Origin: Herbaspirillum sp. Sphag64
Lineage (GTDB): Bacteria; Pseudomonadota; Gammaproteobacteria; Burkholderiales; Burkholderiaceae_D
Length of the DNA: 64,000 nt
Reading direction: 5' to 3'
Assembly: GCF_014192645.1 (NCBI RefSeq)
Contig: NZ_JACHYE010000002.1
Span: 124,001-188,000 of the forward strand
Shown here: one piece after another, positions 6,001 through 21,775 of the stretch
Numbering within the stretch: position 1 is the stretch's first letter
Layout: every line of letters begins with the position of its first letter
Made by a program: the position numbers and the translations under genes
The notes under the pieces: model-generated
The model's input: the letters and a program-made list of their open reading frames with translations, nothing else
Told to the model about the DNA's origin: nothing
The model's database searches: none

Positions 6001-6535
6001 CAGACGGTATATTTACTGCATCCCCTAGCAAATTGAAGCTGCTTGGATCCTTAATGCTACGAAGAAATGCGTTTCCAATTGCGTCGATATAGGGAGTAAT
6101 ACCTTGATCAATAGCATCAAAAACCTTTTTTACGGTTGCCAATATTTCTGGAGAATCGACAATAATACCGCCATAGGTAATAGTCTTACCTATAACAACT
6201 GCAGCAGTTGCAACAGGTTGCGCACCCGGTATAAACGTAGCAAAGGCACCAACCAACGAAATTCCATTACCAATAATTGTTAATCCATCGCTCACCAAAT
6301 TACGGGGATCTGTACCAGATTTAAAATCTATAACAAACTTATAAGTTGCCGTAAGCATCAAGCCGGGCGCAGTTGCAATTGTTGCACCAGGTGACACTGA
6401 AGTTAAAACTCCAATTACTTGGCCAACAGAGTTTACGACTGTTGCTCCATTAAAAACACCTCCGTTAAATGCACTGCTTGCATTATCACCAATCGCTAGA
6501 GCATTAACTATTAAAGTTGAAGTTGTAGATGGCAT
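1..6535 (-). CDS. Giant RTX-type calcium-binding repeat protein (3' end beyond window)
   Basis: The frame is open from an ATG at 6535 to the left edge, about 2,178 codons, with an in-frame stop just before the ATG and no clear Shine-Dalgarno. The N-terminal third has alanine-rich hydrophobic stretches and loose YD-like repeats. Two copies of a module with the pattern DPIxLDLxxxGI followed by EF-hand-like Asp/Asn loops lie at about 3800-3450 and 2495-2130. Between them are cadherin/VCBS-like beta domains (about 3200-2700) and a Gly/Glu-rich linker (about 2660-2490). After them come RTX nonapeptides such as GNGNDLIYAG (about 1880-1480 and 740-300) and three longer repeats. Such proteins are normally exported by type I secretion and fold in calcium outside the cell; no exporter gene is in the window. 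It is last in the operon with the three upstream genes. Adhesin is the likely role; a toxin is possible. Confidence 0.85.
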   Translation of the reverse strand, partial: MPSTTSTLIVNALAIGDNASSAFNGGVFNGATVVNSVGQVIGVLTSVSPGATIATAPGLMLTATYKFVIDFKSGTDPRNLVSDGLTIIGNGISLVGAFATFIPGAQPVATAAVVIGKTITYGGIIVDSPEILATVKKVFDAIDQGITPYIDAIGNAFLRSIKDPSSFNLLGDAVNIPSDQTSGNDNSVVAAAQSLADIIFPENNISAGDNSSGGNVNAYANSSLAQALSTQLTGMTGNFKIGNNADGTIVVVGDNGVIINFNADLSGTKRTQIDSAGSYSEITFGSSQQPISRTDNTFSLDSNGNLTQSTNSYTYVDSQYLITNSSVTKIDAITGNSATSLTNFNLNGVPTSVVKTNLDAATGTVVSSVYDGTGTFLQSQTVTQSSGASVQTVYNSATDSNLTTVTSRDQTGQVVQISLTTAGSDSNSYHTSVTDGSGNPISSQDTSIAISIDGIKTVTQVNYNGTGLIISRIETSSNADGSGAVTTKNYNGNNTLQSVNVTQPDGSSVSTAYNNANDPNVTTVITKDSNGNILSDISTTATSTPGYYIQDNGTSKSVVQLSTNTSTLQTLSDVDDALKLVQAIQQGQPLPILASGLTLANALSPNVYLNEAASVAGGAVSLLGLEQAIKNDNYAAAVGDAASAVAAGAQLYASIEASAAADLASAGTATAAATSAAEAAQAASATATNIATDASYIGVAVDLTEHNYVGAAIAAITVVNPPLGIALDVVDTIFSLFGDDDPPVPWGSGNFVWNSDGSVGLQVTGENGGADDVANEMNAVLGYLEQQVSSANSHSPNEQVGLIASRLPTLSYNNYVFTLTEINPVTGVTSTFKFDQNGNPLDATVGSKNYYLSLTQQYVEAALANNAIAPEWEARTMFDQSQNGLPQAGESEVQRDAATGGLAQPIAATATTQQFDPIALDLTGNGIQTVPLAQSNVSFDVDDSGYLKNTAWLSPNDGFLVLDVNGTGDINVGSDLFSNSQVVPGDRGVASLSWIDSNNDGILTSADPVWNSLQVWQDVNGDGIAQASELHSLSSLGITELDYANGTMVRNGQVYQMATADLTADAQGVKTTETSNGLLVNASDGQVTLVIDNTSQIQTITPGNHQVTTPENVEVDIPVSVLTQVDVATGPGVTGLTITAVGGAVDGTVSLVNGVVHFDPNSDYSGNQASFTYTEQDNLGNIAQGKVGVDVSFVAQPLSITGTGATSNAPYNGQLQVVDPDDTHFSYSIVNQGRDGVATIDVNGNWSFSLDSNYTINSTETDAFQVKVSDSYGMSAVDTITVPIPPAVSPTYGEGGGGDDTAGSGETDGGDTEGTGVGGTGGSGAESGETEGAEGGGGGGGEGGEGGDPIVLDLHKTGIVTTSAQNSNVYFDLSGDGYKNSVGWIGAQDAFLVYDPTGKGVLTSGKQLNLMNYVPDATSDLAALASFDTNHTGALNSSDAIWNDLFVWDDANGNGTVDPGEMKSLAQVGISQISLQNTGTFSVQNNNVISGGFSVSMTDGSQIQADEVTLQMSNQVQITNANGTTSIVAQTPSASNAVVSGDGVLLGNIGNTTITGGNGTDVVFSGDGDDTITVGKGNDVIYAGNGKDVIKVGDGNDVIYTGGGTDLIVAGNGADNIFAGGGNDIIFAGNGNDLIYAGNGNDLISVGDGNDSVIAGNSSIEIFAGNGNDLLQGGAGVAQITAGNGDDNLVAGSGVATLIGGLGNDNFVVNNTADVVQAQSGAKSNTITTSVTYSAVANVQALTGTGSANLTLTGNTLNDVITSNSGVDTLIGNSGNDTFVINNVADVVEVLSGSVKNTELTSVTYTASNGVSNITGTGNANLTLTGNSETNVITANSGNDTLIAGAGVATLVGGSGNDNFVVNNVSDVVDAQSGAASNTITTSVNYTASANVQALTGMGAANLILTGNTLSDVITANAGNDILVVGAGEDQLIGGAGNDTYSLGNAADSITFGQGNSVVTGDSDNANLNVNSNGGGTESITLGNGNSTLNLASNNGNDAIVVGNGSNSVALGEGSDTVTAGNGSDTITAGDGNDQVTVGNGGGTVSLGNGADTIAVGSGGFNITLGNGNDQLAVGNGINNIVLGNGADTVVVNQGTNTIAVNTGNDTVTGNNSTVTINGSTNILSVQGSNDTVAVNGQSDSLNFTGNSSAVTVSGNNNTLSVSGTLDTVAVNGLSNTL
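770..1470 (-). repeat. Three tandem 71-82-residue repeats inside the RTX protein
   Basis: Three similar coding repeats follow each other. Each contains a pattern like GNDNFVVNN..ADVV, then a Thr/Ser-rich strand, then ANLTLTGN. The equivalent DNA positions are about 1411, 1198 and 952, so the periods are 213 and 246 bases, both multiples of three. Copies one and three are closest to each other. Such near-identical in-frame repeats can expand or contract by recombination, which would change the length of the surface protein. Confidence 0.75.
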
Positions 6536-6547
6536 TATAATAATCTA

Positions 6548-6889
6548 TTAAAGAAAATAAATTCTGATTTTAAAAATAAAAACAAAAAACATTGCTATTA
6601 ACAAACCAGCAATTAAACTGAATAAATTATTTCTTAAATAATTATTTTTATCCCGATCAAACAATCTAGAAAAAAATATAGGATATTTTTTTACACATTG
6701 ATATATCAACCAAAAAACACAAAATATAATTAATGGAATCGAAAAAGCAAAAAATTTTATCTTCCAACTATCATAATCAACAACAAGAATCCATTCTCCA
6801 TCAACAAATTCTTTGTGATTTCCAGTTGCCACACTAAAAATCCAAAGAATTATCATAGATACAGAAAATACATTAATTATTTTTTTCAT
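6548..6889 (-). CDS. Small membrane protein, unknown function
   Basis: A 113-residue protein with three hydrophobic segments: residues about 5-22, 48-66 and 88-112. Between them lie a short region with an EFVDGEW-like stretch and a basic loop. It resembles no family I can name. The start overlaps the end of the upstream gene by 17 bases, and the giant RTX gene starts 12 bases after its stop, so the four genes are probably one transcript. The reading frame is very AT-rich (many Lys, Ile and Phe codons), unlike the metabolic genes further right. A run of eight T bases on the plus strand sits directly before its start codon. It could be an immunity-type or secretion-helper membrane protein, but nothing in the sequence decides this. 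Confidence 0.6.
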   Translation of the reverse strand: MKKIINVFSVSMIILWIFSVATGNHKEFVDGEWILVVDYDSWKIKFFAFSIPLIIFCVFWLIYQCVKKYPIFFSRLFDRDKNNYLRNNLFSLIAGLLIAMFFVFIFKIRIYFL

Positions 6890-8030
6890 TTTTTTTATAG
6901 GAAATAAAATTAAATATATTTTCTTCTATTCTTCTAACATCACTTAAGCAATTAATTTTAGAAATCAAATACATAAAATTTTCTTTCTCCTTCTCTGATT
7001 CTAAGAGAAGATTTTCATTATTAATTAAATCTTCCATCCATAATTTCGCTAAATCCCCTCGATCTTTACCCCACATGATTGCGATCTCATCTAAAAATTT
7101 AACATCTAACTTGTTTTCAGAAGGCGCATCACGACTTTTAATTATTTTTGCCAATTTAGCTTTGTAAATGACTATTTTCTCATTTTGCAAATAACGATTA
7201 TCCCCTCGACCTCGTAATTCATTGATGCATTCCAATAGCATTGCTCTTAACCTAGACTTTTCATGTACAAGTGCTTGCTCAGACAGTGGAGTTTGATGAT
7301 CCATTGGGATCGTGTTGCTGATGTTATATCGAAACTCTTTCGACAATTCTGGATATAACTCTTCCAGGAGCATACTTCGCAAAGTCAGTAGCTTTTCCTG
7401 ACTATCAGCCTGCTCAACAAGCAAACTAAATCGCTCGCGCACACGCTCCGTCGAAATCATTACTTTTTCCGTTTTCTCTGCACGCCAAAGAATTAGCCTA
7501 GCGGCATCATGCATCGTCAAATTTCGCGCGACAGCAGTCGCTTCCAGATAAGGATAAGTAGCTTCTGCATCAGGCTGTTCAAGAAAAAGCTTTGCCTCCT
7601 GCCGCTTACGTGCCCGCAACTCGTATCCAAAGCTATCACTCGGCAAGTACGGCTCACGTAGGCGTTGAATTTTGTCCCGAAGAATATTTTTGAGCGCTCG
7701 CTTGTTAGTCTCAATAATCTCCTCTGTCTTATTTTTTCGAGCCTGATCACCGGCATGAACAAATGTATTTCCATTAAATCGCCACGCCCAGCAATTTTGT
7801 AGAGTCATTCCCTGAGGAAGGACTCCTTGGTAAGTAGATGCAAAATACCAATCTCCTTCCATGGGCGGAACATATTGCGGATCAGTGGTGAAATACACCA
7901 CGCGATACGACTTTACTTGTGTCAATACAACGTACTGTTGGCCTTCCAATTGCTCAGCGGATGAGTCAATATTTACACTCGACTTGGCCTGCTCACTATC
8001 CACAACATCAGCCGAAATTATTGTATTCAT
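6873..8030 (-). CDS. Hypothetical protein, helical, operon partner of PRTase-propeller
   Basis: The protein has 385 residues and I do not recognise the family. The first 110 residues look beta-rich and contain aromatic patches (for example YFTTDPQYVPPMEGDW). Residues about 110-250 are strongly charged and probably helical, with LREPYLPSDSFGYELR and ARLILWRAEK stretches. The last 130 residues are Lys/Glu/Asn-rich. No signal peptide or membrane segment is evident, so it should be cytoplasmic. Its ATG overlaps the TGA of the PRTase-propeller gene (ATGA at 8030-8027), so the two are probably translationally coupled and may work together. Parts of the helical region faintly recall phage tail-fibre assembly proteins, but not enough for a name. 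Confidence 0.6.
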   Translation of the reverse strand: MNTIISADVVDSEQAKSSVNIDSSAEQLEGQQYVVLTQVKSYRVVYFTTDPQYVPPMEGDWYFASTYQGVLPQGMTLQNCWAWRFNGNTFVHAGDQARKNKTEEIIETNKRALKNILRDKIQRLREPYLPSDSFGYELRARKRQEAKLFLEQPDAEATYPYLEATAVARNLTMHDAARLILWRAEKTEKVMISTERVRERFSLLVEQADSQEKLLTLRSMLLEELYPELSKEFRYNISNTIPMDHQTPLSEQALVHEKSRLRAMLLECINELRGRGDNRYLQNEKIVIYKAKLAKIIKSRDAPSENKLDVKFLDEIAIMWGKDRGDLAKLWMEDLINNENLLLESEKEKENFMYLISKINCLSDVRRIEENIFNFISYKKNEKNN

Positions 8031-9736
8031 TGTTGGTAAAATTCATTAACAGAATAGACTTTGAGCCCTGCATCATTTGTAGCCAACGCCAGCAAGCCGA
8101 CACTTACTGCAGGTGGTTGAAATACTCTTCCGCCAGCATGCCCCTCCCAAACCTTCAACTCTTTTTCCGAGTCCATAACAGCAATCTGACCGTCCTGAGA
8201 GACCACGATTAAATATTTTCCCATCCGAACAGGAGCCCATACTCCTGGACTGCGCAATCGATTCAACCAACGAATAGCACCAGTCTTTATGTCCAACGCA
8301 ACGAAATTCCATTTGCCATCGAGAATGTACACACAGCCTTCTCCAGTCTCGACAAAGTGATGTGCTCCAGGTTTTCCATAGCGTCGCTCCCACACGGTAG
8401 CCCCGTCGCGTATGTCAAGACAATGCAACATGCCAGTTTCCGTAGCTAAGAAGAGATTATCGCCATCAATCGCTGGACGCCCACGTACCAATCCCTTGGT
8501 GCGCTCCGTCCAACGAATTACACCGGTTGATGCATCCACACAAACCACAGTTTCGTCATTGCAGGTTGCAACAACGCATTGATGAGTTCCATCATAGACA
8601 GGACTACCCGGTGGCCAGTATCGATGGGATGCAGCCCAGAGTTGACGCCCGGTATCCAAATCCAGCGCCTGTAAGTGCCCGCATGGAGAACCTCCATTCC
8701 ACTGCTCAGTATTAATGAAAAGGCGCTTTTTAACCAAATCAATAGCAGGCGTCGCATGGATACTAGATCCTTGACGCCAGCGCCACTGAACCTCTCCCGT
8801 TGACGCGCGCAGCCGCGTCACAGTCCCGTCGTAGCATCCGAAAATTAGACTCTCGTCAACGTGCTGTAAAAGCTGAACGATACCCTTCAGAGGACGCTCA
8901 AGACTTTGATATTCCCATTCAAGAGCTCCGGTTTTTGCGTTATATCGGCTTACCCTACTGCTATCGTCAGCACAAAAAATTGCCTCTTCAGTGACGATTG
9001 GCGTACTTTTATAGCGATATGATTTTGTTTCATTTAACTCGAATCGCCACCATAACGGCTTTTCGATGAAGTCAGGATAAGCCCCTCTCATTTTGGGAGG
9101 TTTTGCGTCGAAGGCATCCCGCGACAAGCCAATATCGTGGCGTTTGAAGAGTGGTATAACGGGGAATTTTCTGAGACTGATCTGGCGAGAGCCTAAAGGT
9201 TGCCACATGTCGAAAAAGACAATCATGGCCACGATATCAAGATCATGACCGTCCGCCTCCAACGCCTGCTCTACGAGAGAAACGACAGAGCCAGCGTCGA
9301 TGAAGTCATCAACAATGACTGCCTTGGTTCCAGCTGGATGTAATCTTCCTTCAACCCATTTTTTCTTGTTATGTCCCTTGCGCTGATCACGTACCATAAG
9401 CACATCTAGCTCGTCACCATCTTCACGAGCAGCGTGTGCAATGGAGAATAAGAGAGGAGCAGCGCCAAATCCAGGACCGATCAACAACTTCACACCGAAT
9501 GGCTTTATGAGCTTCCATAATAATTGAGCGGCACGCGACGCATTATCCGCATTAAACAACATCTCGCGGAAGTCAAATGTGACGCCAGAACCAGTTAATT
9601 GAATAGCTTTACGTAAAATCTCTTTGCGCAAATCAGCCCATTCGGGCTGAGATCGCACTGCATCGTACACAGGAGGGTACAATTTTTTCTCAAGCTGTTG
9701 GTGCTCAATGTGTTGATAGTCTGCGGTGACACTCAT
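8027..9736 (-). CDS. Phosphoribosyltransferase fused to PQQ-type beta-propeller
   Basis: 569 residues in two parts. Residues about 40-230 look like a type I phosphoribosyltransferase of the orotate-PRTase kind: a PRPP-binding strand-loop AVIVDDFIDAGSVV near residue 140 and a basic loop RDQRKGHNKKKW near residue 115, in the place of the OPRT catalytic loop. Residues about 235-569 carry at least six blades with the AxTGxxxW signature of PQQ/quinoprotein-like propellers (NAKTGALEW, RASTGEVQW, DLDTGRQLW, DASTGVIRW, DIRDGATVW, DIKTGAIRW). No signal peptide is seen, so a cofactor-bearing periplasmic enzyme is unlikely; the propeller may be a binding or sensing scaffold. The gene heads the operon that ends in the RTX protein and faces the invertible cassette across an AT-rich gap. 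The real substrate is unknown. Confidence 0.8.
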   Translation of the reverse strand: MSVTADYQHIEHQQLEKKLYPPVYDAVRSQPEWADLRKEILRKAIQLTGSGVTFDFREMLFNADNASRAAQLLWKLIKPFGVKLLIGPGFGAAPLLFSIAHAAREDGDELDVLMVRDQRKGHNKKKWVEGRLHPAGTKAVIVDDFIDAGSVVSLVEQALEADGHDLDIVAMIVFFDMWQPLGSRQISLRKFPVIPLFKRHDIGLSRDAFDAKPPKMRGAYPDFIEKPLWWRFELNETKSYRYKSTPIVTEEAIFCADDSSRVSRYNAKTGALEWEYQSLERPLKGIVQLLQHVDESLIFGCYDGTVTRLRASTGEVQWRWRQGSSIHATPAIDLVKKRLFINTEQWNGGSPCGHLQALDLDTGRQLWAASHRYWPPGSPVYDGTHQCVVATCNDETVVCVDASTGVIRWTERTKGLVRGRPAIDGDNLFLATETGMLHCLDIRDGATVWERRYGKPGAHHFVETGEGCVYILDGKWNFVALDIKTGAIRWLNRLRSPGVWAPVRMGKYLIVVSQDGQIAVMDSEKELKVWEGHAGGRVFQPPAVSVGLLALATNDAGLKVYSVNEFYQQ

Positions 9737-10298
9737 TATTAGATACTAGTTATATATACTATATTTTTATGCATGAATTACGTGTCACTAACGCACGTCA
9801 CATTTTCACTTAACTATTTAATTCAATCGAACCAGAGATTTATCAGAAGATACTTGGTAGTATTTAAAATGATGCGATAGCTGTCAGGCAATTTTGTTGT
9901 TTAATTTACGTAAGTAACCTGTCGAATCGCTGACAACTGACACCTGCAAACATACATTTACAAGTCAACGTATCTTTTTTACACTTCGCCTTCGCTATAA
10001 CTAAAAAATGAATCTAGACATATACGCTTGTAACTAAGATCACAATTTTAGCCACTAATATTTTATAAAATTCGCCAAAAAAATCAAAAAATTAACAAAT
10101 AAATTATTAATTTTTTAAATTCAATTAATTTAATAGAATTGTATTTTTATTGCACAATTGGTTTAAAGTGAAAAAACTCGAATACATTCAATTTTCCAAA
10201 AAACATATGACAACTTGGCTTCTTAATTTGATAATCAAAAGCGTATAAGCAAGATTTAAAATATTCATATATTACATTCCGCAGTAATACCTACTTCA
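9737..10298. promoter_or_regulatory. AT-rich divergent intergenic region
   Basis: About 560 bases without a gene separate the PRTase-propeller gene (leftward) from the STAND NTPase gene (rightward). The stretch 10030-10160 is almost pure A/T with long A and T runs, the kind of DNA bound by H-NS/MvaT-type silencers. A perfect 6+1+6 palindrome lies at 10227-10239. Promoters for both directions must lie here, but I could not pick a convincing -35/-10 pair. It forms the fixed left flank of the proposed invertible segment. Confidence 0.5.
10227..10239. promoter_or_regulatory. 13-bp palindrome, possible operator
   Basis: TTTGAT and ATCAAA flank one central A, giving a perfect 6+1+6 dyad about 60 bases before the left inversion site. 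It could be an operator for the rightward promoter. No regulator gene is adjacent, so the call is tentative. Confidence 0.3.
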
Positions 10299-10327
10299 AT
10301 CGATAACTAAGAATTATGGGTGAGTTT
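10299..10327 (+). repeat. Left inversion site (inverted repeat IRL)
   Basis: Positions 10299-10319 are a perfect 21-base inverted match to 13749-13729; continuing inward to 10327, 27 of 29 positions match (mismatches at 10320 and 10324). The inside of the site is itself a dyad: arm ATCGATAA, spacer CTAAGAA, arm TTATGG. This is the 8-7-8 layout expected of a tyrosine-recombinase core site. The start codon of the STAND NTPase (10316) lies in the right arm. Confidence 0.85.
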
Positions 10328-12760
10328 CTAAACCGACGTCCGCACCTAGAGCGTCTTGCCAGCTTATTTAAAGAGGATGCCGCGCAAGGCGCCGTGGTGG
10401 TCGCGTTTGGTGCTCCCGGGGTAGGAAAATCTGCGCTGTTGAAAGAGGCGACGAAGTCCCTTTCGTCGAAATATTGCTACGTTTATTGCGATAGAAAAAC
10501 CGAAGGGATTTTAAGTGGCCAACCTCTACCGGAACTACTTCAAAGACGTTTATCTGCGCTAGCAGCAGAAAGTGGTTTCATGTCATTTGATGTTTTTGTG
10601 ACAGATAAACATTGGGTCAAAACCTTCGTCCGAGGGGGCGAGGCCGTAGGTCTCGTCGTAGCGAAAACACTGCTTCCTAGCAGTACTGCTGATTTCGCAG
10701 TTGAGGGCTATCAACATCTCAGAACTACGTGGGAGAAGCGGGGGCGGAACTTACCGAAATCCTTCGATATTGACGACCAGCGGCTAGTATATGCATTGAC
10801 GATTTTTGAGAAAAATCCGGCCATCATTCACATTGATCATGCGCAATACCTTGAGGATGCGGAGTTAGAGATCCTGCTGCATTTGGTAGATGCGACCAAG
10901 GCAGTACTTTTCTTAGAGTACGCCTCTCCGAGCTCCTTTTCACTATCCCATCTGCCTCCCCTATTGGCCGAGCGGCAGGTGTTGGCCTTAGCTGTCGAAA
11001 AACTGGGAGATCAATACGCAGATAGACTGTTTGCAACCTTACCAGAACGATTTGCAGCGGTACTGAGAAAGCAATTTGAGCAATCAGATGGAGATTTACG
11101 CTTATTTGACCAAGCAGTCGCTATTCAGTCCCGTAAGCACAATACGGTTGAGGTCTTTGATATTGCCGAAGATAGCTTGCAGCGTACTATTTCGCTGTCG
11201 CTAGAAAGACTAGATAAGGCTCACAAGAATTTACTTATTGCGCTTTCGGCTCACGCAGGTCCAGTAGAGCGAGCGCTCCTGCAAGATTTTATCTATTCAC
11301 TGCCTCCTGAAGCGGGTCTGCCCGAGTCAATCGACATTGACCACGCTATAGATCAGTTAGATGGAGACTTGTTGGTCGTGGCGACCATCAACGACGTCAT
11401 GAGTCAGACGCGCGTCAACAAGAAAATTGACCTTGACCGTCAACTGTCACTTGTCAGATTAACCTTCCGCAAGTACTGGAAAAATTTCTACCAGGATCTT
11501 CCTGCTAAGCAGCTATTTGTCTCCGACGAAGAACGTTGCCGACAACTACTGCATCAGTGTGCTGAACTCGATGATTTCGTCGGTATTGCCAGAACCCTCG
11601 AAGAAGTCGGGCGGAGAGGCATTTCCCGACGCAATCCACGAACCATTGTTTCATATCTGCAAAACATCGTCAGTAAGCTGAAGTTCACCGATGACCGTCG
11701 AGCACTATCGCGTATAGCCCTGTCTCAGTGCCTATTCTTCTATCAGACTGGCTGGTTCGATGAAGCACTGACTTGCTTGCTCATGGTTGAACCGATTCCA
11801 CGCGCCTATAAATATCTGTTGGCAGAACTGTATGCGTCTACAGAACAACAGCAGAAGGGACTACGCTTGGCTCAACGCTATATCGAGCAGCTTGATTCTA
11901 ACGAAAAGGACGCATTGGATGCTGAGTTATGTCTGCGACTGATTATCATGCATGCGTTACGCAATTCAGATCAACTAGAATCTGCCCGCGACTATTATCT
12001 CGAGACAATCGAGCGGAAAAAATATGCATCGCTGAAAGCTTTTCCCACCTTATTGAGATATGCGGATTTTTGTTTGTTTAAAGATGAAGATCAATCTCGT
12101 TGCCTGAAGTACCTGAGGCAGGCCGCAGAACTGACTAAGAAGAATCAAGAAAAAGAAGAATACGCAAGCATATGCCTGTCGCTAGTCCAACAACTCGGTT
12201 ATACCGATGCGTTAGGCGAAGCCGAAGTCTACTTGCATGAAGTCGATAGCATTGCTCAAGACTCGTGGATTCAACAAGCGACATTGTTGACGAATTGGGC
12301 CGTCCTCTCGATGTATCGTGGCATTTCCGACGTCACTGATCGCGACAGCCTAAGACAGGCGCTCCTTTTGTCCTACGATCCGCTCGATAGAATTCTCATC
12401 CAGATCAATATTCTTGCTTGGCATGCTCTTGCCGGACAGTTCGATGAAGCGGCACGTGTCGCCATACCGCTATATCGCGTGGCCCAAAATGCCACAATCG
12501 ATACGGAGATCCGACGCATTGCGTTGTACAACCTAGAGCAGTTGGAACGCGCGCAAGAAAAACAAGAACAAGCGCAAGAGTTATTTGAAACTTGGTCAAA
12601 AATGGACTCTGGTATCGATGAAAAATATTGGAAGTTTCGTCGAGGCGAAACGGTGGCCTCATCCTCTTCGCCGCGCTTTCAGATGCTCTTTCATCCCGTA
12701 TATTTAGCGCATTGGCATACTGGCCTTGTACCCTTTAATGCTATTGCTGACAATGCGTGA
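10316..12760 (+). CDS. STAND/AAA-type P-loop NTPase with TPR-like C-terminus
   Basis: An 814-residue protein. The Walker A motif GAPGVGKS is at residues 32-39 and a Walker B-like strand PAIIHIDHAQYL is near residue 170, typical of STAND/AAA signalling ATPases. The middle (about 300-400) may be a winged-helix segment. From about residue 420 to the end the protein is all helical with repeated Leu/Ala/Tyr spacing, as in TPR-like repeats. STAND proteins with such repeats often sense a ligand and then activate an effector, for example in phage defence; no effector domain is visible at either end here. Its ATG lies inside the left inversion site. The last 57 bases overlap the convergent ATP-grasp gene. 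A weak AAGAA six bases before the ATG is the only ribosome-site candidate. Confidence 0.8.
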   Translation: MGEFLNRRPHLERLASLFKEDAAQGAVVVAFGAPGVGKSALLKEATKSLSSKYCYVYCDRKTEGILSGQPLPELLQRRLSALAAESGFMSFDVFVTDKHWVKTFVRGGEAVGLVVAKTLLPSSTADFAVEGYQHLRTTWEKRGRNLPKSFDIDDQRLVYALTIFEKNPAIIHIDHAQYLEDAELEILLHLVDATKAVLFLEYASPSSFSLSHLPPLLAERQVLALAVEKLGDQYADRLFATLPERFAAVLRKQFEQSDGDLRLFDQAVAIQSRKHNTVEVFDIAEDSLQRTISLSLERLDKAHKNLLIALSAHAGPVERALLQDFIYSLPPEAGLPESIDIDHAIDQLDGDLLVVATINDVMSQTRVNKKIDLDRQLSLVRLTFRKYWKNFYQDLPAKQLFVSDEERCRQLLHQCAELDDFVGIARTLEEVGRRGISRRNPRTIVSYLQNIVSKLKFTDDRRALSRIALSQCLFFYQTGWFDEALTCLLMVEPIPRAYKYLLAELYASTEQQQKGLRLAQRYIEQLDSNEKDALDAELCLRLIIMHALRNSDQLESARDYYLETIERKKYASLKAFPTLLRYADFCLFKDEDQSRCLKYLRQAAELTKKNQEKEEYASICLSLVQQLGYTDALGEAEVYLHEVDSIAQDSWIQQATLLTNWAVLSMYRGISDVTDRDSLRQALLLSYDPLDRILIQINILAWHALAGQFDEAARVAIPLYRVAQNATIDTEIRRIALYNLEQLERAQEKQEQAQELFETWSKMDSGIDEKYWKFRRGETVASSSSPRFQMLFHPVYLAHWHTGLVPFNAIADNA

Positions 12761-13732
12761 AATGAAGTTATTAAACGTTTTCTCGTCGTAGCCGTAGGCG
12801 CTACAGAACTCTCCGTCGGCGCCGAGGTAAATGTCCGGTGTCAATTCGAGGATGATGATCTCGTTATCCTTGGTGATGCGTCCGTCAATTCGTAAGAGTT
12901 CGGTCTTGCCAAGTCGATGAAAGCAATCGATAAAGGCCTCGACGGTCTCTTCCTGAAAGGATGTTTTCAGGTCCTCGAAGGCGAATCGGTAACCACTGGG
13001 CATTTTGAGATCGAAGGTATTTAATCGGTTATTAAGGAAATTCGAATCGCCGTTGATCTTCCATCCACCGATTTCCATCGCAATTTGGTCGTGTTGATTT
13101 CCAAGTAAGCAGGCTGAGAATTCACGGCCCACGATAAACTCCTCGAGAATGACCGGCTGTCCTAAGTTCTCAAAGAGCTCCGCTGCGACTGCGGACACAG
13201 CCTCCCAAGAATTACAAAGGTTTCTGTCTGTAATACCAAGCGATGTACCTTCATAGTTCGGTTTTACTACGACTGGAAGCGAAAGATAGTTGGCATATTG
13301 AATGTCCTGCACTGACGTCAACACGGCTGAATTGGGTGTCTTTAATCTCGATTGTTTGCAGATGGCTTTCGTAAGCTCTTTATCATTACAAACTACCTTA
13401 GCGTACGCGTCAGCACCAACAAACATCACGTCGTTTGCTTCGCAAATTGCGGGAACGAGTCCGTGGCGGCTACGACTGCTTTCTCCGAACCAATAGGGAA
13501 AAACGAGGCAATCTTTATATTGCTCAAGCGCTGTCGTGAACGCGGTGAGATCTGAGAACTGCACCACGTTGTCGCAAGAAGCTTTCAGTCCTTCGTAAAT
13601 CATTTTGACAGTGCCTTCTAGAGGCCGATCAATACGTCTGTCAAATTCAGTGGCGGGAACATCTCCTGTCGAAGGATCTGCCACTAGCAATACGGTTCCA
13701 TCCCATGTTCGCTGACGATTAAATTCATCCAT
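12704..13732 (-). CDS. ATP-grasp ligase, D-Ala-D-Ala ligase-like
   Basis: 342 residues with the ATP-grasp order of D-alanine-D-alanine ligases: a strand LPVVVKPNYEGTSLGIT (about 150-167), the nucleotide-binding segment VILEEFIVGREFSA (about 193-206), and the metal-binding end LLRIDGRITKDNEIIILEL. The last motif reads LELTPD instead of the usual LE(V/I)N, so the metal-binding Asn appears replaced, and the substrate probably differs from D-Ala. ATP-grasp enzymes join a carboxylate to an amine or thiol using ATP. The gene starts in the right inversion site, nine bases after the recombinase stop, and overlaps the STAND gene tail to tail. It may make or use a small molecule together with the PRTase protein; that link is inference. 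Confidence 0.8.
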   Translation of the reverse strand: MDEFNRQRTWDGTVLLVADPSTGDVPATEFDRRIDRPLEGTVKMIYEGLKASCDNVVQFSDLTAFTTALEQYKDCLVFPYWFGESSRSRHGLVPAICEANDVMFVGADAYAKVVCNDKELTKAICKQSRLKTPNSAVLTSVQDIQYANYLSLPVVVKPNYEGTSLGITDRNLCNSWEAVSAVAAELFENLGQPVILEEFIVGREFSACLLGNQHDQIAMEIGGWKINGDSNFLNNRLNTFDLKMPSGYRFAFEDLKTSFQEETVEAFIDCFHRLGKTELLRIDGRITKDNEIIILELTPDIYLGADGEFCSAYGYDEKTFNNFISRIVSNSIKGYKASMPMR

Positions 13733-13749
13733 AATTCTTAGTTATCGAT
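13721..13749 (-). repeat. Right inversion site (inverted repeat IRR)
   Basis: Read on the minus strand from 13749, the arm ATCGATAA is followed by spacer CTAAGAA and arm TTATGGAT; the second arm is the reverse complement of the first at seven of eight positions. The stop codon of the recombinase (13744-13742) lies in the outer arm and the start codon of the ATP-grasp gene (13732) in the inner arm. It mirrors the left site at 10299-10327. Confidence 0.85.
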
Positions 13750-14701
13750 GCATTTCAAGCCGCTTTCTAATGTTGACACGCGAAATTCGCTCTCTAAGGG
13801 CGTGATCTGCCACATGCGTATAAATCTCAGTCGTTGTGATACTTGCATGCCCAAGTAATTTTTGTACGAAACGAATATCGACACCAGCTTCTAGTAACTG
13901 TGTAGCGGCCGTATGTCGCAACATATGAGGAGTAACCTTTTTCGTCAGATCTGCATTTTGAGCGAAAATTCGAATAATTCTGCGCAAATACTGATCTGTC
14001 GCAGGCCTTCCCAGACCGTTCAAAAGAAGCGCATCAGGTATGACCTTTCCAAATCTGACGATAGCACTCTGCCGATAGTCTCGAATTCTTGTAGACGTAA
14101 CTCGGTCTGGGAAAAAAACTTGCCGCTCACGATTTCCCTTGCCGAGAATTTGAATTTTTCGCAATCCGTGATCTATATCATATATACCCACCTTTGCCAG
14201 TTCTCCAATTCTCATTCCTGTCAATGTGAGCACCTCGATTGCAAGTCTCGCTGTCAACATATCCCAGTCACGTCTTGCCCACTTATTATGTAAGCCGTTG
14301 TCGACATTTACAGTCAACATTTCATGATCTATAGAGACGAGCTTTTTCATATCACTCGTTTGTAAATGACGGGGAAGGCGTTTTGGCAGTTTGATATTCA
14401 AATGTAGGCGTTCAAGGCAGTTAGATTCAAGAAATTTGTGTTGAAACAACCAGCGCGCAAAGACTTTAATACATGCTACCCGCCGCTTTACTGTTGATGC
14501 TTTTAAGTCCTGGTCGCTTCGCCAAATATGAACTACGTCGTTTATCCATAGCTCTGAAAAATTGCTCAAAGGCTGAGATAGACCTATTCTTTGCCCGAAC
14601 ATAAGCAAATCTCCCCGATAAGCGCTAAGCGTATAGGGACTCAGTTTTTTTTCAATTTCACAAAATTTCAGAAATAAGCTAGCCGCTTCCGATAAAACCA
14701 T
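13742..14701 (-). CDS. Tyrosine site-specific recombinase (XerC/D-like), probable invertase
   Basis: 319 residues. An N-terminal SAM-like core-binding domain (about 1-95) precedes the catalytic domain with the family residues: Arg in LTGMRIGELAKV (about 172), the HMLRHTAA box (His and Arg, about 263-268), the LLGH His (about 289) and the Tyr in TTEIYTHV (about 298). Length and motifs fit XerC/XerD-type recombinases. Its stop codon is part of the right inversion site and the ATP-grasp gene follows after nine bases, so site and enzyme are physically linked. The start at 14701 has a strong AGGAGG four to five bases upstream, which can pair with an upstream CCTCCT. Xer-type resolution of another replicon is an alternative job, but the paired sites favour inversion. 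Confidence 0.88.
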   Translation of the reverse strand: MVLSEAASLFLKFCEIEKKLSPYTLSAYRGDLLMFGQRIGLSQPLSNFSELWINDVVHIWRSDQDLKASTVKRRVACIKVFARWLFQHKFLESNCLERLHLNIKLPKRLPRHLQTSDMKKLVSIDHEMLTVNVDNGLHNKWARRDWDMLTARLAIEVLTLTGMRIGELAKVGIYDIDHGLRKIQILGKGNRERQVFFPDRVTSTRIRDYRQSAIVRFGKVIPDALLLNGLGRPATDQYLRRIIRIFAQNADLTKKVTPHMLRHTAATQLLEAGVDIRFVQKLLGHASITTTEIYTHVADHALRERISRVNIRKRLEMHR

Positions 14702-14705
14702 ATGC

Positions 14706-14725
14706 CCTCCTAAAAAATAAGGAGG
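14706..14725 (-). promoter_or_regulatory. Hairpin that can mask the recombinase ribosome-binding site
   Basis: In the recombinase mRNA, CCUCCU (from 14725-14720) can pair with AGGAGG (14711-14706) across an eight-base loop of A/U. AGGAGG is the ribosome-binding site just before the start codon at 14701. This would hold translation low until the stem opens, a sensible control for a DNA-flipping enzyme. The pairing is seen; the effect is inferred. Confidence 0.5.
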
Positions 14726-15159
14726 TAATAGTAGGGCCTATTTACCCTGATATATACATATAGTGCTCATGCCAAGCCAAGCCATCACCTTCAACATTGG
14801 TTCGGACCATACTAGTTTAAATAGCATCTTAGATTGCCCCGTGCATCCAAAGGCCCATTGTTCCCATCTCTTGAATACCGTACGCTATAACCGCTGTCTT
14901 TCTTTGAGCGCCGAGTTCTTTCGAAGACCTATCGCCACAATCCTCAAGAGCAGTGGATGCTATTCGAATACAATCGGAATTAATACAAGAAGAAGTGATG
15001 AAAAAATCAGGATAACTTGATGGGGTATTGAATGCACCTAACTAGCCAATCGCTGATTTATCTTCGAGCGATGCAGTTTTTTCAGTTGGCACCTAGCGTT
15101 CCGACTAGAAGGGCGCCAAATCATAAATTATTAATAGCAAGATTTACTAGGGGGCTGTA
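14726..15159. other. Intergenic region between recombinase and HEPN-like gene
   Basis: About 430 bases. An 85-codon frame (14763-15020) has no homology I recognise and odd composition, so I do not treat it as a gene. Divergent promoters for the recombinase (leftward) and the HEPN-like gene (rightward) should lie here; the A/T-rich segment around 15122-15145 is the best place for the latter. I saw no further copy of the inversion site. Confidence 0.4.
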
Positions 15160-16740
15160 GTGACAATGTTATTACCGAAAATAAAAGATCGATTTCTCTC
15201 AGGAGATTTTGTCCTTCACTGTTCCTTAATAACTTTGGAGCAGTGTGGCACTGAAGTAGAGCCAAAAATCTACGCAGGATCAGGTTCGATTGCGCTAAAT
15301 CCCCGAAAAGGATTCACTGGGAGCTTTGTGTCGCCAGTGCCCTTGGATACATTCAGGCAACTAATGGATGACCAGCAACTGGTTAGCGGCGAAATTATTC
15401 CAGATTCATATTTCTATCGTCTTCAAGCAATTTCCCTAGATGGAACAGCATGGGGCAATCCTAAAGTTGCTATTGGGCTTGAATTCGATGCTACGGGGAC
15501 ATTAGTTACCTTCGAACCGGACTTCCTGTCGACATTACGCCCAATAACCGAAGCATCCCAGACAGTAGCCAATTTCGTTTTTCTGGAGACACTTCCCTTT
15601 CCTTTAACTCATGGCACGAATACTATCGAGAAGGGACTGGACGGAGAACAATCCCGTTGGAAACGAGATCAAGGTGAGGCTCGCACAGCTCGGATGCACT
15701 TGAAATATCGCGAATGGAAGGAGAAGACTACTCACTCCCAAGTCACAGCGATATTTTTCGATACCGCACCGTTGGGCTTCGAACACCGACTGTTAGAGGC
15801 GATCAGGTTCTCTACGGCCGTACCCGCATCGTGGGTCATGCTGGAGTACGTTCAAGATGGACTGGTACATTTCGAACTAAGTCCGTACAGGCCTGCGCTA
15901 AACCACTTAGTCGATGAACCGCTGCAAGCTCGCGAGAACGCGCTAGATTTTTTCCGATTGTTTGATTCCTACTACGTTCATTCAAGTGAAAATGCCAAGG
16001 GCGAGGAATTTTCGCAGCTGTCCGTCGCCATAGGTGCGTTGTTCAATCTTAAGGGACTGGCCATCGGCGAAATCAGTCTCGTGATCGGCGTAACAATTGA
16101 AGCGCTGTTGAAGGAAGGATTTTCGGAGCTAGAGGAAATTGATCCCGAGATCATCGTGGAAGTAGAGGTGGTGGAAGACGTTATTAATTCTCTGACCACC
16201 ATACGTGAGAAGTCCCGAGGCCGTATGAAAGGTTCAATGAGCGGCATTAAGTCAATTCGCGCTCGGGACAAACTGGAAAAACTGCAGAAACTGGGACTAG
16301 TCAATCAAATGGAGCTGCAGCACTGGAAGAAACTCCGCAATACGTCGGCTCATGGATCCCTTCGGATCGATCCTCAAAAATGGCAGCAACATCTCCAGCG
16401 GATTTTTGCGGTGACTACACTGGCGTACAAGTTGACCTTCTTGCGGATCGGGTATTTCGGTCCTTATACTGATTACGGTTCGCCAGGTTGGCCAACCGCA
16501 TGGTTTCCCACTAAGGATGATGCCCAGAAACTTTCGCGTGTGACTGAGGAGCTTGCTCAATTACCTGTAGCGGATGTTAAGGGTAAGTTATACGCTTGGA
16601 AAGCGGTGGAGACGGCCCTTCGAAATACGTTTCCAGAAGGTGATGTCGGTGCGTTGCGTGCATCGGCGAGTCTGGTTCTCCTGGCAGCAATGAGAAAAGT
16701 CGGCACGCTTAGACTAGCCGAGTTAGGTTCGGGTAACTAA
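15160..16740 (+). CDS. HEPN-motif protein, possible anti-phage RNase (ApeA-like)
   Basis: 526 residues. The N-terminal half (about 1-240) is mainly beta strand and of unknown fold. The C-terminal half is helical and contains WKKLRNTSAHG near residues 386-396, which has the Arg-x4-His signature of HEPN ribonuclease domains. An N-terminal sensing region followed by a HEPN domain is the layout of the ApeA defence family, but I can only say that the motif and order agree. The start is set at GTG 15160, six bases after a G-run; an ATG two codons later is possible. Codon use is AT-richer than in the genes after 17.6 kb. It stands alone, transcribed away from the recombinase, next to the invertible cassette. 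Confidence 0.65.
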   Translation: MTMLLPKIKDRFLSGDFVLHCSLITLEQCGTEVEPKIYAGSGSIALNPRKGFTGSFVSPVPLDTFRQLMDDQQLVSGEIIPDSYFYRLQAISLDGTAWGNPKVAIGLEFDATGTLVTFEPDFLSTLRPITEASQTVANFVFLETLPFPLTHGTNTIEKGLDGEQSRWKRDQGEARTARMHLKYREWKEKTTHSQVTAIFFDTAPLGFEHRLLEAIRFSTAVPASWVMLEYVQDGLVHFELSPYRPALNHLVDEPLQARENALDFFRLFDSYYVHSSENAKGEEFSQLSVAIGALFNLKGLAIGEISLVIGVTIEALLKEGFSELEEIDPEIIVEVEVVEDVINSLTTIREKSRGRMKGSMSGIKSIRARDKLEKLQKLGLVNQMELQHWKKLRNTSAHGSLRIDPQKWQQHLQRIFAVTTLAYKLTFLRIGYFGPYTDYGSPGWPTAWFPTKDDAQKLSRVTEELAQLPVADVKGKLYAWKAVETALRNTFPEGDVGALRASASLVLLAAMRKVGTLRLAELGSGN

Positions 16741-16797
16741 GATTTCATACTGAGACCGTATGTACCGGAGAAACTTGCCTTGTCATCGTAAAAGTAT

Positions 16798-16813
16798 CCC
16801 AATACAAATTGGG
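16798..16813. other. Short hairpin after the HEPN-like gene
   Basis: CCCAAT and ATTGGG pair across a four-base loop, 57 bases after the stop codon. No U-run follows, so it is not a standard terminator; it may stabilise the mRNA end. Confidence 0.3.
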
Positions 16814-16933
16814 CGACTATGACCTACAATCTAGTCTGGAAAAATCATAGAATAAGTTTATTTTTTGACAAAAATACTCCATCCACTTCGCACAAAACGC
16901 AGACGCTCGCTTCCCCTCACACCACCAGAACTC

Positions 16934-16967
16934 AAAATCCCAACCATCTGTGGTTGGGATTTTTTTT
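16934..16967 (+). terminator. Rho-independent terminator
   Basis: An 11-base perfect stem (AATCCCAACCA at 16936-16946 with its complement at 16951-16961) has a four-base loop and runs into eight T bases. It reads best on the plus strand and probably ends the HEPN-like transcript, about 195 bases after that gene. The A-run before the stem means it could also work leftward. Confidence 0.85.
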
Positions 16968-17662
16968 GTCCGTAGCGCCAGTCCTGGCGGGACATCCCGG
17001 ATTGCCCTCTTGAACATGACTAGTCGACATGACTCAGTTTTGAGGTGAAATATGGCGCTTACCTCTCTCCGTTCTCTGTTTTTCTCTTGCACACTCAGCA
17101 ACAAAATCAGCCATTCGAGCTGACTCCCGAGCTGCCAGTTTGTTTTAACAACTGCCCAGGGACATGCAACCCAATCCCAAACCGAGCCAGGCCACCTTAC
17201 CCCTGACTTGACCCTATCCCACAAAGCAGTACCGACGCTTTCAAGCAATCAGCGCAGCTATTTATTTTAACTAGAATACTTAAGCGGAAGACAGTCATCC
17301 CACCTCAAACAGGCGACACCGGGAGTACCGTCCGCAATGGAACAAAATCCGTTCCACAATCAAGCGGAACCGAAGTCCCAGCCATCCCGCTGATCGTCAC
17401 GTCACGCGCAGATGAAGCCATCAGGCTGGATGTAAAACTCACCGCTTCCGGCCCAAGGAAAAATGGGTTGCCGCAGGAAGCTGTTCTGGAGCACCATTGC
17501 GGCCGCGGGAAAATGTCGGTGGCGTTGCGTCGAGGACGACATTGTCTAGCGCTATCTCAAGCGAATTCCGATATCCTGCATCATCAAACCCGGCAAATGT
17601 CAGCTGGCCGCCGCCCCATTTTGCGCTTCCTACAACATGCAGGTCGCTGAATATGTTCATTG
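16968..17662. other. Gene-poor junction between island and metabolic region
   Basis: Nearly 700 bases with no convincing gene. A small inverted repeat (CGCCAG/CTGGCG) lies at about 16976-16989. A 73-codon minus-strand frame at 17660-17439 contains a stretch like YRNSLEIALDNVVLD that could be the end of a decayed beta-sandwich protein, but no start signal or domain supports it. GC content rises through this stretch, so it may be the right edge of the accessory island. No tRNA gene or attachment repeat was recognised. Confidence 0.4.
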
Positions 17663-19015
17663 TTAACGGTGCACCAACAAGGGCGCAGCGCCGAGTTTGG
17701 TCCGCAGGCTGGCGACATCTTTATCAGACACAGCAGATGCGGCATTCCCCCATGTATTGCGGACATAAGTGGCAATGGCTGCCGCATCGACATCGGATAA
17801 TTTCCAGGCAAAGGCTGGCATCTGCGCACTCGTGGGATTGGTCTGCGTCGCTGCCCCTCTGCCGCCGAGCAAGATAGCACGAATCAGGTTATTGGCACCC
17901 GGTGCCTGCGCGCCAGGACTATTGGCCAGCGATGCCACCATGGCATCCACACCCTGCCCATTGCTGGCATGGCAGGCGGCACAATTGACCTGAAACAGTT
18001 GATGGCCCAGCAGCATCGTCTGATCCGTTTGTGCCAGCGGAGCCGGTGCGGTCTGCCCGGAGCCGGGCAGACTCTTCAGATAGACGGCAATTGCCTTGAG
18101 ATCATCCTGATTCAGGTATTGCGTCGAATTGCTGACGACTTCCCCCATCGAACCAGCGGCCACACTGCTACGGTTACCGCCATTGTGAAGATAATTGACG
18201 GTCTCCTGTACGTTCCAGCTGCCGATACCAAGATACGTGTTGCCACTGAGTTCAGGCGCATGCCAGCCTTCGAGATCATTGCCAAGCAAGTAATCGTTGT
18301 TGGCACCTAACAGATTCTTGCCGCTATGGCAGGCGGCGCAATGGCCGACACCATCGACCAGATAAGCACCACGATTCCATTGCACCGATTTGGCCGAATC
18401 GGGCTTGAACGGTGAGGGATTAAAGAACAGCAGATTCCAGCCAAACATCAATTGCCGGATATTGAAGGGGAATGGCAACTGCGTCGGTGGTGCAGCTTCC
18501 GGTACCGGCGGGATGCTCTTCAGGTATGCAAAGATATCCTTGATATCCTGATCTGATATCACGGCATACAGGTTGTAAGGCATGGCGGGATAAAGCAGTT
18601 TGCCGTGCGGCGCTACACCCTGCTTGATGGCGCGTATAAATTCCTCCTCGCTCCAGCTGCCGATGCCATGTTCTTTGTCTGGCGTGATATTGCTCGACAC
18701 GATCACGCCAAAAGGAGTCGCCATGCGTAAGCCACCCGCAAAATCCTTGCCTCCCTGAACGCTATGGCAGGCAATACAATCTGCTGCCTGCGCCAGGTAT
18801 TTACCACGTTGCACGGTGTCTTTTGAGCCGCCATGCGCCAGATCATATTGTGTGACCTGATCAAGCAAGGCCGTATCGGCTACCGTGCTGTTACGCTGCG
18901 CGCTTCTCCATTGCATCAAGCCCAGCAACACAATCAGCGCCAGCACGAAAAGCGCCACCACATACTTGACCCATCGCCTGCTTGTTGAAGGGGGCTTGTT
19001 TTGTGTCGTCACCAT
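17663..19015 (-). CDS. Triheme cytochrome c subunit of gluconate-type dehydrogenase
   Basis: 450 residues with an N-terminal membrane anchor (about 16-36) and three CxxCH heme sites: CIACH (about 78), CAACH (about 225) and CAACH (about 345). This triple cytochrome is the electron-accepting subunit of membrane FAD dehydrogenases for gluconate, 2-ketogluconate, sorbitol or alcohols; it passes electrons from the flavoprotein to ubiquinone at the periplasmic face. It begins one base after the stop of the GMC subunit and is the last gene of a three-gene operon. Which sugar acid is oxidised cannot be read from this subunit. Confidence 0.9.
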   Translation of the reverse strand: MVTTQNKPPSTSRRWVKYVVALFVLALIVLLGLMQWRSAQRNSTVADTALLDQVTQYDLAHGGSKDTVQRGKYLAQAADCIACHSVQGGKDFAGGLRMATPFGVIVSSNITPDKEHGIGSWSEEEFIRAIKQGVAPHGKLLYPAMPYNLYAVISDQDIKDIFAYLKSIPPVPEAAPPTQLPFPFNIRQLMFGWNLLFFNPSPFKPDSAKSVQWNRGAYLVDGVGHCAACHSGKNLLGANNDYLLGNDLEGWHAPELSGNTYLGIGSWNVQETVNYLHNGGNRSSVAAGSMGEVVSNSTQYLNQDDLKAIAVYLKSLPGSGQTAPAPLAQTDQTMLLGHQLFQVNCAACHASNGQGVDAMVASLANSPGAQAPGANNLIRAILLGGRGAATQTNPTSAQMPAFAWKLSDVDAAAIATYVRNTWGNAASAVSDKDVASLRTKLGAAPLLVHR

Positions 19016-19016
19016 G

Positions 19017-20789: not shown

Positions 20790-20815
20790 GCAGCACTCCC
20801 GAGTGATAGTGAAAT

Positions 20816-21523
20816 TTACGATTGTTTGCGAATAAAGCTGACCGGTTGAATATCCAGTTTTTTGCCGGGTTGATTGAGGTAATCGCGGAAGTCGTACTGG
20901 GCTCCGGGAAAACCGACCAGCTTCCAGCCCGCCATGTCTTTGTTGCCGCCATAAATGGGATCGGCAAAGTAGCCTTCACGGACGTTCCACAACACCAGAT
21001 TGAAGAAGAGTTTGGCATCCACGCCATCGAGGGCGAGGCTGCCAGCTTCCCACTGATTGATCAAGGCATCCTGTTTGTCTGGTGACAGCTCGACAAATCG
21101 CTTGCCCTGGTATTGTCCGCGTACCGCCTTGTCCAGAGCAGCGAGTCCGACACGCCAGCGCGTTGCCGGGCCGTCCTTGAACTGTGGCCCGGCTTGCGGC
21201 AGACCTTGCTTGAGTGGACCGTCGAGATAGAGATAGCTTCCCTTGCCATAGTCGCCGGCTAACTGGGCATCTATGAAGACGACACAGCCGGCTTCTTTCG
21301 CGCCGATACTCAGTTCGTCAGCAGGAATCAGACGCTCGGCAATGGCCTCTGCCAAGGCAGCTTCATCGGTGGTGAAAAATTTCCAGCCATCGGCAATGAC
21401 CGGCTGTGGTGGACTGGCGGGCGGCCCATTCCATGGCATCCCGCCCCAGATCACTTTGGCTTTGGCTATCACCGCCGTACCTGCCAGAACGGCCAGAGTG
21501 AGCAGGAAATAACGTCTGCGCAT
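20816..21523 (-). CDS. Small (gamma) subunit of gluconate-type dehydrogenase, Tat signal
   Basis: 235 residues, gluconate 2-dehydrogenase subunit 3 family. I chose the ATG at 21523, not the upstream in-frame start at 21592, because it has a GAGG site and gives a normal signal beginning MRRRYFLL, a twin-arginine-type motif followed by a hydrophobic stretch. The subunit guides the folded flavoprotein through the Tat system and stays bound to it. The gene is first in the operon, 26 bases before the flavoprotein gene. A LysR gene lies 250 bases upstream in the same direction. Confidence 0.85.
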   Translation of the reverse strand: MRRRYFLLTLAVLAGTAVIAKAKVIWGGMPWNGPPASPPQPVIADGWKFFTTDEAALAEAIAERLIPADELSIGAKEAGCVVFIDAQLAGDYGKGSYLYLDGPLKQGLPQAGPQFKDGPATRWRVGLAALDKAVRGQYQGKRFVELSPDKQDALINQWEAGSLALDGVDAKLFFNLVLWNVREGYFADPIYGGNKDMAGWKLVGFPGAQYDFRDYLNQPGKKLDIQPVSFIRKQS

Positions 21524-21775
21524 GAAGTACCTCGTTTGATAATGGATGAAAGCAACTGCTTGGGAAGTTACTTGACCGCAATACAAAACCAATACTGCAT
21601 ATTCTTAGCAATGTCGGCCCTGACCTGCCAGTGATACTGGCCCATATCGACCAGCGAAATGCCACGTAGCATTTATATTAGCGGCAAGTTGAGCAGATTG
21701 TGCTTTTTGCGTCGTCGGGCAACAACAATCAATCCAGAAAACAGGTAAGCAAGTTTAACGTCCTGTGCCAACACC

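Follow-up and report, generated by a model that had tools for sequence, protein, structure and literature searches.

Most known phase variation concerns surface structures and restriction specificity. In the G segment of phage Mu, inverted by Gin, and in the pilin inversion of Moraxella, carried out by Piv, an invertible segment places alternative genes behind an outside promoter. A comparable arrangement is reported from Ureaplasma where, according to the part of the source consulted, XerC inverts a segment with two oppositely oriented genes and, once it had inverted, clones made either MBA or UU376 (PMC3599477). Here we describe a locus in a 64,000-nucleotide stretch of the genome of Herbaspirillum sp. 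Sphag64 (the window), in which an inverted repeat encloses genes for a STAND-like NTPase and an ATP-grasp ligase-like enzyme next to a gene for a tyrosine recombinase. We consider it very likely that this module is a site-specific inversion switch exchanging which of the two genes follows each outside leader. Among the matches listed in the open-access literature, a scope outside which bioRxiv and most subscription journals lie, this cassette is not described. The sequence-based prediction that drew attention to the locus (the original prediction) knew of no system that toggles a STAND protein against an ATP-grasp enzyme, and none is described among these matches. The consulted parts of a genome-wide inversion study from 2018 (PMC5903667) and of work published in 2025 on phage resistance involving a serine recombinase (PMC12529663) make no mention of such two-gene cassettes.

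Results

Both orientations of the segment occur among relatives

An exact 21-nt inverted repeat (10299-10319 and 13729-13749), which lengthens inward to 29 nt with 27/29 identical positions (10299-10327 and 13721-13749), brackets the NTPase and ATP-grasp genes. Among exact inverted repeats with arms more than 200 nt apart it is the longest in the window (runner-up 16 nt), and it lies beyond 60 dinucleotide shuffles of 4000-24000, in which the longest exact inverted repeat measured 15 nt (mean 13.6). The two genes, arranged tail to tail, are the only open reading frames (ORFs) of at least 60 aa that remain between the arms once overlapping frames are removed. The NTPase gene faces an AT-rich far flank and the ATP-grasp gene adjoins the recombinase gene, its start codon lying about 10 nt past the recombinase stop (Table 1). 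The original prediction had described this perfect repeat, exactly two convergent genes between its arms and a recombinase gene ending in the right repeat, and all three were recovered when coordinates, reading frames and the position of the stop codon were re-derived.

Plasmid searches with the recombinase and with the ATP-grasp protein found the same three genes on plasmids of Aliarcobacter, Methylobacterium and Paenibacillus. Profile A4 returned ten loci from a genome collection of 84,980 species, six of which were accepted by score and gene order: Herbaspirillum, Mucilaginibacter, a Bacteroidetes metagenome-assembled genome (MAG) whose contig carries just the recombinase 3' end, an Ignavibacteria MAG, Ruminococcus and a Lachnospiraceae bacterium. 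The remaining four had no paired sites and were taken as plain ligases. With the window included, the STAND/ATP-grasp pair occurs together with recombinase and paired sites at 12 loci from several phyla. In all 12, one identical inverted ATAA-N7-TTAT pair surrounds the ATP-grasp and NTPase genes; the 7-nt spacer is equal at both ends of each locus and differs among most loci. Site pairs of the first five loci were taken from a plain motif list, and identity was required in the later searches.

Orientation was scored relative to the recombinase. The ATP-grasp gene adjoins the recombinase gene in 5/12 loci, namely the window, L033 (Herbaspirillum sp. alder98, taken as the same genome as G1574, in which the module has identical contig positions), L008 (Aliarcobacter cryaerophilus plasmid pM830MA), L009 and L036. 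The NTPase gene holds this position in 6/12 (L044 and L007, which are two modules on plasmid pACRY43158, and L010, L034, L037 and L038), and L035 has no orientation call. When pM830MA was aligned with pACRY43158, positions 1-985, containing the recombinase gene and the first site, were colinear at 100% identity, positions 969-4425, a segment of 3.46 kb, matched the opposite strand at 99.9%, and positions 4406-9000 were colinear again at 99.8%, with the alignment breaks falling at the core sites. Since the segment is inverted exactly at the cores between near-identical plasmids, such an inversion has happened in nature. The original prediction, which had read the locus as a DNA inversion switch and proposed to look for the opposite orientation in related genomes, is thus strengthened: both orientations are found (5 against 6 of 12), together with one exact plasmid inversion and with paired sites at every locus.

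The two modules of pACRY43158 lie about 13 kb apart, have the spacers TAGGTAA and TAGGATA and both show the NTPase gene adjoining the recombinase. The pM830MA NTPase is annotated as two overlapping pieces (L008:1937-4407), and the inverted copy on pACRY43158 is one ORF. In L007, L034 and L035 an additional aminoacyl-tRNA editing (YbaK-type) gene lies ahead of the ATP-grasp gene; L036 has an open frame at this position.

A scan of the whole genome collection with a single protein returned no relatives. The STAND protein was found in 1/300 genomes of the window's order, its own, and the ATP-grasp protein at 1e-15 in 3/274 genomes of the class, the two others at 25 and 28% identity. Profile A4 matched 22/299 genomes of the phylum, its own at 1e-172 and the remaining 21 at 3e-35 or weaker; from score alone these 21 were taken for other ATP-grasps. 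Profile A7 matched 1/195 genomes of the family at 1e-35. At the DNA level 2/21 genomes of the genus contain the module; in a third, a related recombinase accompanies different cargo. No relative turned up when viral contigs were scanned twice with profiles. In a phage collection the L010 ATP-grasp protein gave four partial matches of 23-25% identity, of which one carries a D-Ala ligase annotation and three carry none.

A recombinase family with identical inverted core sites

A profile built from ten recombinases scored family members at 2.8e-102 or better, and the next matches in the same genomes, at 4e-71 or weaker, were taken as Xer-like. At 1e-85 it matched 18/246 genomes in the order of the Lachnospiraceae relative and 7/296 in the phylum of Mucilaginibacter, the seed genome being included in each count. 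We fetched 26 further loci by this profile alone and found an identical inverted core pair in 13; in seven others the contig stops at unpaired cores, one or two in number (L094, L096-L098, L101, L104, L114). Such pairs occurred in 1/520 shuffled loci and 0/11 control loci, the latter comprising four plain ligase loci and seven Xer-like loci of about 2.5 kb each, whose shortness limits their value as a control. The family-wide site consensus, GATAAY-N5-ATTAT, fits the form at which tyrosine recombinases cut, namely short inverted arms with a 6-8-nt spacer between them.

The genes between the sites are placed with similar precision. At 48 of 53 gene ends (27 loci) the gene starts within 40 nt of a site; annotated starts were used if available and the frame's first start codon if not, with a few chosen by eye. 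The convergent tails overlap in 22/29 pairs and overlap or lie at most 10 nt apart in 27/29. The recombinase gene reads into the segment in 20/29 loci, and its stop codon overlaps the site in six, the window included. In the recombinase tree the family forms no clean clade, L010 being placed beside the Xer outgroup, and tree and cargo type do not track one another.

Three loci showed additional copies of recombinase or sites. In Lachnospiraceae bacterium 3-2, whose genome has four family recombinases, two copies lie in an inverted repeat of about 1.9 kb that encloses a 987-aa ORF and a glycosyltransferase gene (L060:8339-17350). The Bacteroidetes MAG G1025 carries a second core pair at a contig end (L133:1233-2327), 958 bp apart and with 76-nt arms, possibly a small invertible segment. 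L109 (3647-10507) has core copies at 3647, 4267 and 5081, an inverted one at 10493 and a recombinase-like fragment, as if cassettes had accumulated.

Cargo is exchanged at the sites

On plasmid pAFAEC of Aliarcobacter faecis, the same recombinase (98%) is found together with the same sites, but GNAT and methyltransferase genes lie between them; the plasmid's flanks outside the sites match those of pM830MA at 98% and 91%. Five Streptococcus plasmids, four from S. salivarius and one from S. equinus, share one recombinase locus and carry three cargo pairs: a polyprenyl synthetase with a membrane protein, a serine-hydroxymethyltransferase (SHMT)-like enzyme with a TPR protein that has weak AAA and nSTAND matches, and a GNAT-like protein with a methyltransferase. 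Comparison of L063 with L120 and L121 from this set showed the cargo replaced exactly at the sites. In a further Herbaspirillum genome, G1579, the recombinase is 70% identical to that of the window and the core is identical, with a 1099-aa AAA protein and a glycosyltransferase-9-like protein as cargo. These comparisons show that the site pair also marks a cassette boundary, at which the cargo pair is replaced over evolution with recombinase and sites staying in place.

Among the 13 paired loci of the recombinase-profile set the main cargo is convergent in 12. Between the sites of L117 there is no ORF of 60 aa, and between those of L109 there are six; the cargo of the others is listed in Table 1. 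L106 and L111 match ThsA models at 1.4e-103 and 2e-84, and their TIR proteins match PDC-S66 (1e-17 and 2e-14) better than ThsB (2e-9 and 4e-6), so that by family matches their cargo is Thoeris, composed of a ThsA SIR2-STALD protein and a TIR protein. Homologous cargo genes retain their partner across distant hosts: STAND/ATP-grasp in the 12 loci, methyltransferase/GNAT-like in three (plus one identical copy), and spermine-synthase-like/unknown and Thoeris ThsA/TIR in two each.

Contig ends suggest flipping within populations

The distance from the recombinase 3' end to the contig end is at most 200 nt in 8/26 loci; at the 5' end this holds for 0/26. In three of the seven genomes asked (G1095, G1227 and G1360) a second contig starts with the same site and inner bases as the recombinase contig and then diverges outward. 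Inside the core the shared stretch is identical over 34/34 nt in G1095 and 52/52 nt in G1227; the two inner ends of 30 intact loci never fully match at these lengths, the best values being 31/34 and 42/52, both in L038. The contigs of G1095 and G1227 are what both orientations in the reads would give and are suggestive of flipping in populations. We rejected the contig breaks as proof of mixed orientation, and they remain suggestive only, because long repeat arms could equally break an assembly and because G1227 yielded no cargo contig carrying the shared stretch. Exact arms reach 77 nt in L111, and the 3987-nt contig of L035 has the same 82 nt at both ends, including the recombinase 3' end, which leaves the same ambiguity.

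Proteins and surroundings of the module

The NTPase has a Walker A motif and an AAA_16 match of 1e-8, above the Pfam cut-off, and no NACHT, NB-ARC, TPR or other repeat model matched at 0.01. The label STAND is accordingly a putative one, drawn from AAA_16 and the long C-terminal part. The ATP-grasp protein matches Dala_Dala_lig_C at 1.3e-12 and stays at 82 bits against TIGR01205 (D-alanine--D-alanine ligase; cut-off 246), and from these matches it is predicted to be a Ddl-like enzyme. The recombinase matches Phage_integrase at 3.1e-34, and its nearest solved structure by sequence is XerD 1a0p (3.4e-62). It falls below the NCBIfam equivalog cut-offs for XerC (193 against 335 bits) and XerD (179 against 330 bits) and by this measure is apparently not a housekeeping XerC or XerD. 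The residues R164, K188, H259, R262, H285 and Y294 are all present, as is the catalytic R-K-H-R-H-Y set in 36/36 aligned family recombinases, the window's included. Of the gene names originally given, recombinase and ATP-grasp ligase-like enzyme hold, and STAND is kept provisionally. PADLOC gave 2e-4 and 5e-4 as best matches of the NTPase, which are not convincing, and no match for the other five window proteins tested.

Table 1. Coordinates of the module in the window, and cargo genes between the sites of other loci.
Locus	Feature	Position	Strand	Basis or remark
Window	AT-rich far flank, no listed ORF of 80 aa	9737..10298		27% G+C, window 53%
Window	Left arm of inverted repeat	10299..10327	+	Core site ATAACTAAGAATTAT at 10303-10317
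Window	AAA_16 / STAND-like NTPase, 814 aa	10316..12760	+	ATG overlaps core site
Window	Overlap of the two convergent 3' ends, 57 nt	12704..12760		ORF coordinates
Window	D-Ala-D-Ala-ligase-like ATP-grasp enzyme, 342 aa	12704..13732	-	ATG overlaps core site
Window	Right arm of inverted repeat	13721..13749	-	Core at 13731-13745; contains recombinase stop codon and ATP-grasp start codon
Window	XerC/D-like tyrosine recombinase, 319 aa	13742..14701	-	Catalytic residues complete
L106, L111	Thoeris ThsA/TIR			Family matches
L107	Methyltransferase/GNAT-like			Family matches
L105, L118	Spermine-synthase-like/unknown			Family matches
L095, L109, L115	Glycosyltransferase with large AAA or Mrr-type proteins			Family matches
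L113	SHMT-like/NB-ARC			Family matches
L110	ATP-grasp_3/pentapeptide			Family matches
L116	EamA/methyltransferase			Family matches
L119	FAD enzyme/unknown			Family matches

A sigma-70 scan of 9700-15200 gave 9 matches where 10.1 were expected; the best sigma-70-like match in the far flank lies at 10207-10235, and matches there are no more than in shuffles. With scan counts at chance level, promoter placement was rejected as evidence. A terminator consensus scan found nothing inside the overlap of the two 3' ends, the nearest terminator-like site lying at 12847-12863 (+).

Directly left of the far flank (8027-9736) the window encodes an orotate-phosphoribosyltransferase-like N-terminal part followed by a PQQ-type beta-propeller. 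Right of the module (15160-16740) follows a 526-aa protein that had no Pfam, NCBIfam or PADLOC match at 0.01. An ORF of 2178 aa at 2-6535, open at the window edge, has glycine/asparagine/aspartate-rich repeats that look RTX-like by eye, and a 287-nt stretch (16922-17208) has a 94% copy elsewhere on the same contig (G000:C2:97832-98118).

Discussion

We propose that the recombinase would recombine the two identical inverted cores (ATAA-N7-TTAT) and flip the intervening 3.4-kb segment. Each of the two convergent genes starts at a site, so that a flip would exchange them between the outside leaders, swapping the gene behind the far flank with the gene behind the recombinase gene. As the tails overlap, read-through of one gene would be antisense to its partner, so that probably mainly one product is made per leader. 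The overlap of the recombinase stop codon with the site, seen in the window and five further loci, makes it possible that the adjacent gene is translated by coupling with the recombinase. The inversion itself is well supported; alternate expression of the two genes, reversibility within a culture and a role in phage defence are inferred.

Several observations weigh against reading the module as a switch between two outside leaders. The assembled contig of the window displays one orientation, and the near-identical pairs L063/L064 and L121/L122 each share the same orientation; only one near-identical pair shows an inversion. Half of the loci fetched by the recombinase profile (13/26) are without a detected site pair, six of them not ending at cores (L099, L100, L102, L103, L108 and L112); near the recombinase, three of these six have a core-like match that is unpaired. 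In 9/29 loci the recombinase gene is directed away from the segment. Promoter scores at the two ends of 26 loci beat 90% of shuffles in 1/26 at either end, and beyond the repeat neither L033 nor L140 has a far flank significantly similar to the window's. The far flank (9737..10298) is presumed to hold a fixed promoter, which is unproven because promoter scores match those of shuffles and the far flanks are dissimilar. The Thoeris cargo of L106 and L111 adds a warning. Thoeris requires both of its genes, which act together, and since they do, the partners of a cassette may be halves of one system and not alternatives. In that case a flip may determine which half of Thoeris is produced, or the system may be armed only around the time of a flip.

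A broader proposal, which we put forward tentatively and at somewhat short of even confidence, is that these loci are invertible immune cassettes with exchangeable cargo that form a widespread class. A single family of recombinases with ATAA-N7-TTAT sites would hold two tail-to-tail halves of an immune or conflict system (STAND and an enzyme, ThsA and TIR), one half would be read at a time, a flip would arm or disarm part of the population, and the same sites would admit new pairs.

It is possible, if rather unlikely, that the module is a dosage or timing device in which both leaders are active, the two genes are partners and the flip swaps their dosage or lets the two proteins coexist just after it. 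That a given cargo gene has the same partner even in distant hosts would agree with this, as would the need of Thoeris for both genes and the 20/29 loci in which the recombinase reads into the segment and could be co-transcribed with its neighbour; the overlapping tails, in contrast, disfavour high simultaneous expression of both genes. We regard as improbable that the sites serve integron-like capture, exchanging or integrating cargo, with orientation recording the capture and flipping being rare. Exact replacement of cargo at the sites under the same recombinase, and the independence of recombinase tree and cargo type, speak for capture. However, the two Aliarcobacter plasmids differ at the locus by little beyond the inversion, an arrangement of two convergent genes, each starting at one of the inverted sites around them, fits a switch, and both outer flanks in G1095 and G1227 are joined to one and the same cargo end over 34/34 and 52/52 nt. 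The shortness of the repeat is all that favours chance, a duplicated ribosome-binding site or transposon terminal repeats, and these can be dismissed, as the original prediction had argued for the first two, given the shuffles and control loci, the conservation of core and position across phyla, which refutes them, and the lack of a transposase between the arms among window ORFs and their Pfam family matches.

The recombinase family described here extends from Herbaspirillum to Bacteroidota, Campylobacterota and Bacillota, and the paired genes that it flips and swaps are unrelated to each other. Its cargo includes Thoeris, as well as STAND-like NTPases paired with ligases, glycosyltransferases or SHMT-like enzymes. 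Should orientation govern expression, the arrangement of the DNA would keep immune genes off in a fraction of cells until a flip released them. Conservation of the pairs flags candidate two-gene systems (ATP-grasp, SHMT-like, spermine-synthase-like and methyltransferase/GNAT pairs), and recombinase profile and site motif together are a ready tool to find more cassettes.

Integrons, too, combine a single tyrosine recombinase with sites at which cargo can be exchanged. Here an inverted site pair surrounds two genes in place of a cassette array, attC-type hairpins not having been searched for. The loci L106 and L111 share with Thoeris the ThsA SIR2-STALD and TIR proteins and differ in that the two genes are convergent between recombination sites; an invertible Thoeris is not described among the matches listed in the open-access literature. 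As far as the consulted sources describe them, the Fim, Hin and RecV promoter inversions and invertons are similar in their site-specific inversion between short inverted repeats, but flip a promoter or regulatory element, whereas here whole genes flip between outside leaders. Gin of phage Mu is a serine recombinase and Piv of Moraxella is related to transposases, unlike the tyrosine recombinase found here, and their alternatives are versions of one protein, whereas ours are unrelated enzymes. Ureaplasma mba/UU376 resembles our locus in that a tyrosine recombinase inverts a two-gene segment and alternates the genes (PMC3599477). In the part of that source consulted, the system concerns membrane or surface proteins of one genus, has another repeat sequence and comes with no mention of cargo exchange; xerC (UU222), judged by gene number, lies elsewhere, whereas here the recombinase adjoins the segment. 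Inversion as such is a long-known principle; what appears to be new is the family spanning several phyla, with its exchangeable pairs and its immune cargo.

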